Shown here: positions 25,061 to 28,174 of the stretch, piece by piece
How the letters are laid out: the number at the start of each line of letters is the position of its first letter
Position numbering within the stretch: position 1 is the first letter of the stretch
Source of the DNA: a virus
DNA: 28,178 nt
Virus record (IMG/VR): IMGVR_UViG_3300044530_000011
Coordinates: 1 to 28,178 of that record
Reading direction: 5' to 3' (one strand)
Notes under the pieces: model-generated
Told to the model about the DNA's origin: nothing
Databases searched by the model: none
Seen by the model: only the letters and a program-made list of their open reading frames with translations
Made by a program: the position numbers and the translations under genes

Positions 25061-26587
25061 CTAACTTCCCATCCATGAAGTTGCAACCGCCGGTCTGTCA
25101 GTGTACTTGCGGCTTGTTTCCCTCGCAGTATATTCCCTATGAGCCACAGGAAACGCAAACGTCACGCATATTGCGTCAGCCGCGTCAGGACTTGCTAGGC
25201 CACGCGCCTTCATGTCCTTCTTTGACTCCAAAAATATAGTGCCCCTCGAATCTGGCTTGATCATAGGCGATACCAAATCAGTTTTCAAGAACCTATCTTT
25301 GGGAATTGATGCCGTTCTTAGCCAATCCTTCATTTTTCCCCACATTTCAGCCCTTTTATTGCCATACATGACCGGATTTGCCGATTTATTGCCAAAGTTG
25401 ACACCTTTGACTTTGTACCTTTGTTCCTTCAATCGGTCAACAATGCCAGCACCCAAGCCACCCTCATCAATTACCACCATCGCAGGCTTAAATTCCTCCA
25501 TGGCCTCAATGATGTGGCCAACCACCGTCATGGTGTCATCGCCTCGATGCCTGTCAATGCGCACAATGTCGCGTCCTTGGCGTATCGCAATCACCGTAGC
25601 ATCAGCGCCAAAGCGTGCAGGGTCAACTCCAATGATGATTGGCGCAGTCTGATCCTTGTACTTAGGCCTATTCATGGCCTCATCCACAATGTCAGCCGGA
25701 ATGAACTGGTCATCACCCTCAGATGGGAACATGCCATAGACCTCAACGTGCGCTTGGCTGGATTCGGGCCCGTATTCGTCAATGATGTTCTGGTATACCG
25801 CCTTATCAGTGCCTTCTACCGTTCTAGCATCCACAACCTTATTCGTCCAGAAGTCGCGCTTAGAGTTAAAGCACTCATAAAAGTAGCCAGTGTTGCGCCG
25901 TGGGTTAGAGAACGCCAACCAAAGGCGGTTCGGTGTGTTCTCGGTAAAAAAGCCAGCCGTCACAGCCCAGATCGAGTCGTCAATACCGCTGGCCTCGTCA
26001 AAGATCACCATCACACCATCAAAGTTGTGGACACCAGCATAAGCATCTGGGTTCTCTGCGCTCCACAACCGGCCCTCAACAGCCCAATACCTTGTGCCTT
26101 TTTTGAGGTCTTTCTCAACCAGTTCAGTCAACCACGTTGCCGGCGTGATCTTGGTGGCCGCAACCTCAAACCAGTGGCTGTTAATGCTCATGGCCAACCA
26201 CTTCGTAATCTCAGCCCAAGTCACCGCACGCAGCTGTGCTTCGCTGTTGGCCGAAATGATCGTTGTTGAGCCAATGCGCGTTGATAGCATCCAGATGGTG
26301 AGCCAGCTGACTAAGGCTGATTTGCCGATACCACGGCCAGAAGACACCGCACTGCGCAGGGTGTTGAAGTCTATCTTGCCCTGGTTGTCTTTGATGTGGT
26401 TGCTGATTTCGCGCAGGACTTCCCTCTGCCACTTGCGTGGCCCCTTGAAGTTCGCCAGTGGCGTGTTCTCTTGGCCCCAAGGGAAGGCAAACAGCACAAA
26501 CGCCTCTGGGTCATCGGCAATCGCCGGTGTCCACAGCGTGGCCATCAACTCTTGTTCGTCTTCGGGCTTGTAGATCGTGGTTTGCAT
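25061..26587 (-). CDS. Terminase large subunit (TerL)
   Basis: The 508-residue protein has the packaging ATPase Walker A SGRGIGKS (residues 83-90), Walker B VMVIFDEAS (192-200, D197/E198), and a C-terminal RNase H-like nuclease with IIIGVDPARFGADATV (D322), MVVIDEGGLG (D374) and a late Asp in SPDAADAICV. It pumps DNA into the head through the portal and cuts the concatemer. The N-terminal 50 residues are a typical recruitment region. No clear small terminase subunit is seen in the window. The ATG follows the upstream stop with no gap. Confident. Confidence 0.94.
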   Translation of the reverse strand: MQTTIYKPEDEQELMATLWTPAIADDPEAFVLFAFPWGQENTPLANFKGPRKWQREVLREISNHIKDNQGKIDFNTLRSAVSSGRGIGKSALVSWLTIWMLSTRIGSTTIISANSEAQLRAVTWAEITKWLAMSINSHWFEVAATKITPATWLTELVEKDLKKGTRYWAVEGRLWSAENPDAYAGVHNFDGVMVIFDEASGIDDSIWAVTAGFFTENTPNRLWLAFSNPRRNTGYFYECFNSKRDFWTNKVVDARTVEGTDKAVYQNIIDEYGPESSQAHVEVYGMFPSEGDDQFIPADIVDEAMNRPKYKDQTAPIIIGVDPARFGADATVIAIRQGRDIVRIDRHRGDDTMTVVGHIIEAMEEFKPAMVVIDEGGLGAGIVDRLKEQRYKVKGVNFGNKSANPVMYGNKRAEMWGKMKDWLRTASIPKDRFLKTDLVSPMIKPDSRGTIFLESKKDMKARGLASPDAADAICVTFAFPVAHREYTARETSRKYTDRPAVATSWMGS

Positions 26588-27868
26588 TTATTTTGTTCTG
26601 ACAATCAACTGATTGACCGGAACGTCGTAGCTTTGATAGGGAAAAGTGGCTATGCGTTCTTGAGGCGTCATGTTCATGCGAGTTTGCACTGCTCTGGCTT
26701 CGGCTTCGCCGGCAAGACGCTGATACAAATCAAATTTTGCTTGTTCGCTGTGATAAGCAAGTAACGCTTTTTCATCTAATTCACGCGCCTCTTTTTCAAG
26801 TTTTAAACCTTTTTTGCGGGCGCCAGGCTTGACAATCTTTGTTGGATCAAGCGGGTCATTAGCGCTAGACATCCTAAACATTTCTTGTGCTTGTTCTCTT
26901 TTTTGTTTTGCAATTTCTTCAAGCGTCAAAATCATTGTTTGTGGATCACCACCCCCTGCAAAACCTTCTCTTTGCTGTACAGCGTGTTGAAGCTCATGCA
27001 ACATTGTTGATCTATTTACAGCTCCATTTTCGCTAATAGGAACACCAATATTGTCCCTTTCGGTTTCGTAATATCCGCCCTTTCTGCCAGGCTTCAAAAA
27101 AACGCCAATATTTTTTGTGTCGGGATATGCCGCCGATAGTTCTGGGTGCAACAAAGCCTTTTGCCTGCGAACTACGGTTGAATTTCCTCTTTCTAAATCT
27201 GTTCTTTCACCCCAAGAATAAAGTTTGTGGCCAGGCATTGAATTAGCGTCACTAATCTCTTGCCTCAATTTGCCTTCTGACCCCCTAAATGTGCCAGTAG
27301 CTGCCCAGATTTCTTCAGGTTTTGCGCCAGCCTTTTCCATCTCTAACGCTTTATTTGCAGCAGCCTGATTCCATGTCTTAGAAGTAGGGCCAACAAAAAT
27401 CTGGCTTTGCGTACCCTGCGCCATTCCCTGCAACATCTCAGCCGGCAACCCACCGCGCTCCATGATGCCTGGCACAACCCTCTCCGCATAACGCTCACCA
27501 GCCATGCCAGCTTTCATTGCCGCCTGCCTTGCAGCCCTTGCCGCTTGCAGTGTGGCCATAGTCGCAGGCTGCGCTACAGGCGCCACCGCCATGGCCGCTT
27601 CTAATGCCTCCGGCCTGATGCGTGTCGTCATGCCTGCACCAGTTGTTAGGGGTTCGCCATAGGACAGGCGATCCAGTGTCTGGCTAATCGCCGGCATCGA
27701 TAAGAACCGCGCCGTGCCCTGCATCTGCTGGGTGCGCTGGGGTGAATAACTCTGCGCTATCAGGTCAGCCAGTGCGCCCAAATACTCGTTGCGCTGGGTT
27801 GCGCTCAAAGTGTCTTGGTACGCCAACATGTTTGCTGGGCGCTGGGCTAGGGCGTTGTTAATTGGCAT
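26588..27868 (-). CDS. Polyvalent-type protein with zincin metallopeptidase domain
   Basis: A 426-residue protein in two parts. Residues 1-150 are Ala/Gln-rich and helical. From ~158 there is a segment like large-polyvalent-protein-associated domains (SKTWNQAAANKALEMEKAGA, then IWAATGTFRGSEGKLRQEIS), and then a zincin core: STMLHELQHAVQQREG gives HExxH (H291, E292, H295), with GEAEAR (E388/E390) as the likely third ligand. Polyvalent proteins of phages and plasmids are thought to be delivered with DNA and counter host defence or modify targets. It is the first gene of the late operon, before TerL. The 5' half is visibly GC-richer than the protease half. No Shine-Dalgarno precedes ATG 27868. 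Substrate unknown. Confidence 0.8.
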   Translation of the reverse strand: MPINNALAQRPANMLAYQDTLSATQRNEYLGALADLIAQSYSPQRTQQMQGTARFLSMPAISQTLDRLSYGEPLTTGAGMTTRIRPEALEAAMAVAPVAQPATMATLQAARAARQAAMKAGMAGERYAERVVPGIMERGGLPAEMLQGMAQGTQSQIFVGPTSKTWNQAAANKALEMEKAGAKPEEIWAATGTFRGSEGKLRQEISDANSMPGHKLYSWGERTDLERGNSTVVRRQKALLHPELSAAYPDTKNIGVFLKPGRKGGYYETERDNIGVPISENGAVNRSTMLHELQHAVQQREGFAGGGDPQTMILTLEEIAKQKREQAQEMFRMSSANDPLDPTKIVKPGARKKGLKLEKEARELDEKALLAYHSEQAKFDLYQRLAGEAEARAVQTRMNMTPQERIATFPYQSYDVPVNQLIVRTK

Positions 27869-27917
27869 GGGGCAGATGTTAAATCATTTTTTTAAAAAAT
27901 AAAAATAAAAAATGTTT

Positions 27918-27936
27918 GCGGGGCTACCGTTCCCGC
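27918..27936 (-). terminator. Terminator-like hairpin ahead of late operon
   Basis: GCGGG (27918-27922) pairs with CCCGC (27932-27936) around a 9-base loop. In the - direction the stem is followed by AAACATTTTTTATTTTTATT, a T-rich tract. It would stop leftward transcription before the first late gene unless antiterminated, or protect the leader from readthrough. The stem is only 5 bp, so this is moderate. Confidence 0.4.
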
Positions 27937-27995
27937 GGCCCTTTCGCGCCGGCCCTACCCCCGCCCCCTCGGCCATCGGTGGCAGGCCATAGGCG

Positions 27996-28084
27996 TTGTC
28001 CACAGGCAGTTATGCACACTTGTCCACAATTGCTTGTGCATAACTTTATTTGTAATGCTTTGATACTCTTAAATCTGTGGATAA
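27996..28084. promoter_or_regulatory. Cluster of five DnaA-box-like sites
   Basis: Five 9-mers in 89 bases match the DnaA box TTATCCACA or its complement: TTGTCCACA at 27996-28004, TTATGCACA at 28010-28018, TTGTCCACA at 28020-28028, TGTGCATAA at 28035-28043 and the perfect TGTGGATAA at 28076-28084. Three are on the + strand and two on the - strand. The density is far above chance and an AT-rich tract lies about 80 bases away, as in bacterial origins. Confidence 0.7.
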
Positions 28085-28156
28085 CTTAGGGTCAACTTAA
28101 CATAATGGACACTGTATAAAGTAGAAACGTATTTTCTGCTTTCCGAGCCTTCTTTT

Positions 28157-28174
28157 CGTTGCGTTTGCGCAACG
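28157..28174. repeat. Perfect inverted repeat at the window edge
   Basis: CGTTGCG-TTTG-CGCAACG: a 7-bp stem with a 4-base loop. No T-run follows in the visible bases to the right; on the - strand it is followed by AAAAGAAGG. It could be a protein-binding palindrome, an origin element or the end of a terminator that continues outside the window. Confidence 0.5.

Follow-up and report, generated by a model that had tools for sequence, protein, structure and literature searches.

The DnaA-box array and its surroundings

The window analysed here, by which we mean the whole 28,178-bp stretch of virus record IMGVR_UViG_3300044530_000011, is classed as linear and is therefore probably a fragment. It resembles podoviruses, has terminase and portal genes of the P22/Sf6 type and is related to DSL-LC05, which has been proposed as the founder of the 'Luchaoviridae' (PMC10611076). 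Next to its terminase genes lies a module of DnaA boxes and a dif-like site, with the features listed below; box offsets are counted from the XerD arm and are given for two sets of unique sites, 26 retrieved by way of the large terminase subunit (TerL) and 58 found with nothing but the Xer pattern, with no box criterion.

25061–26587, minus strand: terminase large subunit gene (terL), downstream neighbour of the module
26588–27868, minus strand: 426-aa open reading frame (ORF), an insertion that carries an LPD23 domain and separates the module from terL
27880–27917, no strand: AT-rich tract (95% A+T), candidate unwinding element
27918–27995, no strand: GC-rich block (78% G+C), a feature of lineages A and C that B and D lack
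27996–28004, plus strand: DnaA box 1, TTGTCCACA; at −99/−98 in 23 of 26 TerL-retrieved sites
28010–28018, plus strand: DnaA box 2, TTATGCACA; dispensable, in 12 of 26 TerL-retrieved sites
28020–28028, plus strand: DnaA box 3, TTGTCCACA; at −75 in 18 of 26 TerL-retrieved and 51 of 58 Xer-pattern-retrieved sites
28035–28043, minus strand: DnaA box 4, TTATGCACA; at −60 in 24 of 26 TerL-retrieved and 53 of 58 Xer-pattern-retrieved sites
28076–28084, minus strand: DnaA box 5, TTATCCACA; at −19 in 25 of 26 TerL-retrieved and 55 of 58 Xer-pattern-retrieved sites
28095–28105, minus strand: predicted XerD-binding arm, TTATGTTAAGT; nearly invariant, identical to the XerD arm of the Rhodoferax ferrireducens dif (PMC2731167)
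28106–28111, minus strand: central hexamer of the Xer site, TGTCCA
28112–28122, minus strand: predicted XerC-binding arm, ACTTTATACAG; less conserved than the XerD arm, a trend shared with true dif sites

The five boxes span 89 bp (27996–28084) in the orientation order + + + − −. Three of them fit TTWTNCACA exactly, where the preliminary description of this DNA had counted a single perfect box, and no further exact box occurs in the 28 kb window. Near-boxes are scarce across the window as a whole (41 observed compared to roughly 70 expected), so the equal box density elsewhere that the same description had named as a refutation is not seen. Of 2,000 dinucleotide shuffles, one had three exact boxes within 89 bp, 17 had five near-boxes within that span and none reached the combined box score of the array; the reported cluster of five box-like 9-mers is thus real. 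An exact IHF consensus, TATCAAAGCATTA, lies on the minus strand between boxes 4 and 5 (28053–28065) and, judged by eye, is apparently not conserved in relatives.

The region is non-coding and has the AT-rich tract and GC-rich block initially described, but it does not head a late operon: in relatives, a terS gene of the Sf6 type (PF20901) lies roughly 50 bp past what corresponds to the window's right end and is transcribed towards the module, which places the region in the gap between terS and terL. The AT tract is a candidate unwinding element; the AT peak at about −215 from the site is strong in lineages A and C but only weak in lineages B and D. The start of terL in relatives is some 0.1 kb away from box 1, a distance that grows to 0.7–2.5 kb where an ORF is inserted, and other genomes have different ORFs or none in this interval. 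The interval (window 26588–27868; also loci L123, L018 and L025) looks like a hot spot for insertions; the ORFs found there have LPD23, DUF6782-like or ART-PolyVal-like domains and may encode injected or polyvalent proteins. On the opposite side, the window carries an inverted repeat, GTTGCG-TTTG-CGCAAC (28158–28173), whose stem is kept in relatives while the loops change; other lineages have different short inverted repeats to the right of the XerC arm.

A dif-like site ten bases from box 5

The preliminary description overlooked a 28-bp dif-like site at 28095–28122, ten bases from box 5, which reads ACTTTATACAG-TGTCCA-TTATGTTAAGT on the minus strand and has the layout of an 11-bp arm, a 6-bp centre and a second 11-bp arm. 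With a profile built from the arms of 26 beta- and gammaproteobacterial dif sites, it is the top match in the window (16.8 bits), as are the corresponding sites in 13 of 13 other module-carrying genomes. Scores in module-carrying genomes range from 16.8 to 30.4 bits and those of the profile's own dif sites from 17.7 to 37, and the window's site owes its position at the lower margin of the real dif scores to its own XerC arm. The same scan of module-less relatives gave no score above 13.2.

Across 123 unique sites, part of them retrieved by a pattern that includes this arm, the XerD arm TTATGTTAAGT occurs in 113, and the XerC arm has at least 20 variants. The XerD arm is thus the better conserved of the two, the same trend as in true dif sites. 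A 13-mer, CTTAACATAATGG, is present with at most one mismatch in 88 of 91 contigs selected by box geometry; we had considered it as a promoter, an unwinding element or a packaging site, and dropped these readings because it consists of the XerD arm and the centre. Viral contigs have almost no module variants with an XerD arm of the gamma type (AAAT): there were two matches. We infer that the 28-mer is a putative XerC/XerD recombination site.

Conserved spacing and distribution across phages

At the level of sequence, the DnaA array and the dif-like site are the two halves of a conserved composite. At least three of the four boxes 1, 3, 4 and 5 sit at their exact positions in 53 of the 58 sites retrieved by the Xer pattern, and the 26 TerL-retrieved sites have few boxes outside the fixed positions; as the retrieved loci are related, these counts are not independent events. 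The distance between box 5 and the Xer site is fixed at 10 bp across lineages. Such rigid spacing suggests that boxes and Xer core would act jointly, as one nucleoprotein assembly.

The module is widespread among viral contigs, and all frequencies from the scanned collections are to be read as lower bounds. A 33-mer over boxes 1–3 recurs exactly in 25 other IMG/VR contigs, whereas the box geometry and, in a separate scan, a 17-mer on the right-hand side of box 5 each occur in at least about 119 contigs. We fetched 182 loci with the module, some of them overlapping pieces of one contig, and each holds one copy. Conservation of the boxes in related phages, which the preliminary description had proposed to look for, is therefore clear, and a host-DnaA site on the phage genome is well supported. 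Similar module DNA was absent from INPHARED phages and PLSDB plasmids, and a scan of 84,980 species genomes for the box geometry gave no proteobacterial match; for the same reason, we rejected mimicry of a host oriC.

Whereas the module always lies near terminase genes, these belong to three TerL types and co-occur with three primase types, in the TerL + primase pairings A + A, A + D, B + A, B + C, B + D and C + C. TerL A and C share 30% identity and TerL A and B have no significant similarity; TerS A and C are 27% identical. Primases A and D share 33% identity, and primase C combines PriCT_2 with AAA_25 instead of Toprim with AAA_25. The orientation of the module relative to terL is reversed between lineages. 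Since the module is common to such varied terminase and primase types, the readers that all carriers have in common are most likely to be found in the host, namely DnaA and XerCD.

Replication and recombination genes of the carriers

In the carriers tested, we found primase-helicases but neither a tyrosine recombinase (PF00589) nor, with three Pfam models, a DNA polymerase of type A, B or III alpha, although primase C may belong to a primase-polymerase (PriCT_2), which makes the absence of a polymerase less sure in lineage C. A ParA-type partition gene (PF13614) was not found in 17 records. The phage-plasmid lifestyle suggested earlier thus gains no support beyond the Xer site, given the lack of both ParA and a PLSDB match.

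Within the window's own TerL family (82–97% identical), genomes with a Toprim primase carry the module, and those with DNA polymerase A have neither module nor dif site. Homologues lacking the boxes do exist, as the preliminary description had envisaged on the side of refutation, but they carry a different replication module that includes a polymerase. The whole replication module is swapped within this one family (82–97% identity; G035 and G032 versus G065, G041, G054 and G060), one type consisting of a Toprim/AAA_25 primase with Sak4, a Cas4 exonuclease and an SF2 helicase, and the other of DNA polymerase A with a DUF5906 protein and a SNF2 helicase. Module-less polymerase-A relatives (L068, L075, L091, L092, L087 and L093) have other box arrays near terS, either sets of six boxes whose order is fixed but differs from that of the module, or copies of TTGTCCACA in tandem, and these come without a dif-like site; in L068, L075, L091 and L092 they lie roughly 0.67–0.80 kb upstream of terL.

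Two other candidates were rejected. The boxes are not a trait of the Toprim/AAA_25 primase as such, as fetched records with related primases (cultured phages of marine or saline gammaproteobacteria, a Roseobacter phage and an environmental genome) lack such clusters, and the cultured phages among them have neither box clusters nor dif-like sites. Nor is there a general phage-encoded reader with DnaA domain IV: PF08299 was found neither in the window nor in 73 IMG/VR relatives, but only in MW202483.1. There, a 99-aa protein (31423–31719; loci L028/L029) consists of little beyond the DnaA C-terminal DNA-binding domain (PF08299, 64 bits), has no ATPase and is a possible phage-made DnaA-box binder.

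The switch in GC skew that an origin might show was not seen consistently: in ten genomes the extrema lie between 158 bp and about 18 kb from the site. A first, non-detrended reading was discarded because rotating the genome at the site makes the skew trivially extreme there.

Comparison with known systems

The dif of Rhodoferax ferrireducens, ACTTGATACGA-TGTATA-TTATGTTAAGT (PMC2731167), agrees with the window's site at 23 of 28 positions, including the identical XerD arm TTATGTTAAGT, and differs in its centre (TGTCCA in the phage compared to TGTATA); in the phage, DnaA boxes adjoin the site. Judged from dif similarity alone, the host may be a member of the Comamonadaceae.

Plasmids offer a second comparison. 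A 31-nt query from a relative's site matched 652 plasmids, 538 of them from Acinetobacter, and the plasmid sites we fetched read ACTTCGTATAA-CGTCCA-TTATGTTAAAT or near variants thereof, and are pdif sites. They share the 28-bp layout of 11 + 6 + 11, and one of them has the centre CGTCCA of the phage relatives and differs only in arm positions. In contrast, the phage XerD arm ends in AAGT rather than AAAT or AATT, each phage genome has a single site, and DnaA boxes in the phage geometry were found at none of six fetched plasmid pdif sites.

Regulatory proteins are known to work beside Xer cores at cer (ColE1) and psi (pSC101), where ArgR or ArcA at defined positions, together with PepA, impose directionality on XerCD (PMC11724359, PMC5357621), and plasmid accessory sequences lie at defined distances from Xer sites (PMC11724359). 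The phage module likewise combines an Xer core with binding sites of a regulatory protein at a set spacing (PMC11724359, PMC5357621), but it has DnaA boxes where cer and psi have ArgR or ArcA sites, and its boxes lie on the XerD side whereas the accessory sequences of cer and psi flank the XerC arm. Because of this XerD flank, we do not regard the phage array as a member of the cer/psi family.

With filamentous phages that integrate through Xer (IMEX phages such as CTXphi, VGJphi and TLCphi), the carriers share a dif-like site and would share a reliance on host XerCD (PMC5357621). Unlike them, they are tailed dsDNA phages with DnaA boxes, and no integrated copy was seen, as the 84,980 genomes gave no proteobacterial geometry match. 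With DnaA-box origins they share clustered TTWTNCACA boxes and a nearby AT-rich tract, but not a consistent skew switch or a detected phage initiator; the converging orientation of the phage boxes and the built-in Xer site set them further apart. Such origins include oriC and P1 oriR, the latter being a DnaA-box origin. The components are known and their combination is new.

Proposed mechanism and alternatives

We propose that the module is a composite cis site at which host DnaA and XerC/XerD would meet in one assembly on circular phage DNA, a reading to which we assign a probability of roughly 55%. The boxes, of which there are four or five, would be bound by host DnaA, and the dif-like 28-mer at a distance of ten bases by host XerC/XerD; DnaA would then act as the architectural accessory protein for XerCD, as ArgR or ArcA does with PepA at cer and psi. 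Recombination would resolve multimers or recircularise terminally redundant genomes. P1 recircularises such genomes by Cre/lox, and its loxP lies near pac; in a headful phage, a site on the terminase side would likewise be close to the packaged ends, where circularisation by XerCD may be possible. The same array would probably also start replication by the host replisome. Binding of DnaA and XerCD, recombination, origin activity and the coupling of both are predictions, made from sequence and, for the joint action, from the spacing. More tentative still, and in our estimate somewhat short of even odds, is the step by which host DnaA would gate XerCD recombination at the phage site, making it a DnaA-dependent counterpart of the ArgR- or ArcA-dependent cer and psi.

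The main rival, which we consider unlikely but serious, is an ordinary DnaA-dependent origin beside which lies a separate site for resolving dimers: DnaA would open the AT tract or the interval between boxes 4 and 5, the phage primase-helicase would load, host Pol III would copy the genome and XerCD would later split dimers with DnaA uninvolved. The box cluster with its AT tract, the presence of primase-helicases in carriers without a detected polymerase and the recurrence of the module alongside replication genes in other phages all fit this scheme. Independent elements should drift, however, and the spacing between box 5 and the Xer site does not; the AT tract is weak in lineages B and D, GC skew is uninformative, and cultured phages with a related primase do without both elements. 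What survives of the DnaA-dependent origin in the preliminary description is a clustered and conserved set of boxes, while the skew gives it no help and the array belongs to a rigid Xer composite. For the latter reason, origin may not be its sole or main role, even though host-DnaA-driven replication fits carriers in which no DNA polymerase was detected. As a second function of the array, an origin is plausible, given the lack of a detected polymerase A, B or III alpha and the AT peak at a fixed offset, which is strong in lineages A and C but weak in the other two.

The remaining explanations each account for part of the module. That it is an attP through which the phage integrates at the host chromosomal dif by XerCD, in the manner of the filamentous IMEX phages, appears improbable: a dif-like site in a phage lacking its own integrase, and a centre whose first three bases equal those of the Rhodoferax dif, would suit it, but the central hexamers otherwise differ from TGTATA and the geometry has no proteobacterial match in the species genomes. 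Titration of host DnaA by a decoy that halts host replication initiation, which the preliminary description had also raised, draws on a dense array of good boxes that phage replication would multiply, yet a sink requires neither fixed spacing nor an adjoining Xer site and boxes are otherwise rare in the window, so we give it very little credence. Hardly any weight falls on the readings as a pac (packaging) signal or as a late promoter serving the terminase region, as the constant proximity to terminase genes is offset by the sharing of the module among phages with unrelated terminases (no significant TerL similarity between A and B, 27% for TerS A and C), by distances to terL of about 0.1 to 2.5 kb and by its reversed orientation between lineages.

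Significance

The recombinases or initiators that tailed phages use are generally taken to be their own. In this case, a cassette of roughly 130 bp in unrelated freshwater phages holds only predicted binding sites for host proteins, DnaA and XerCD, in register with each other, and its dif-type arms let the site double as a host marker. In the papers we searched for XerCD or dif with DnaA boxes, or for Xer accessory sequences, we found nothing on a role of DnaA in recombination; if boxes and Xer site cooperate, DnaA would gain such a role in site-specific recombination. If true, this would show how phages that lack an integrase and use the DNA synthesis of their host recircularise their genomes or resolve them. 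Should DnaA gate XerCD, genome circularisation and monomerisation would be tied to the replication state of host and phage, through a mobile cis cassette common to unrelated tailed phages of one host group.
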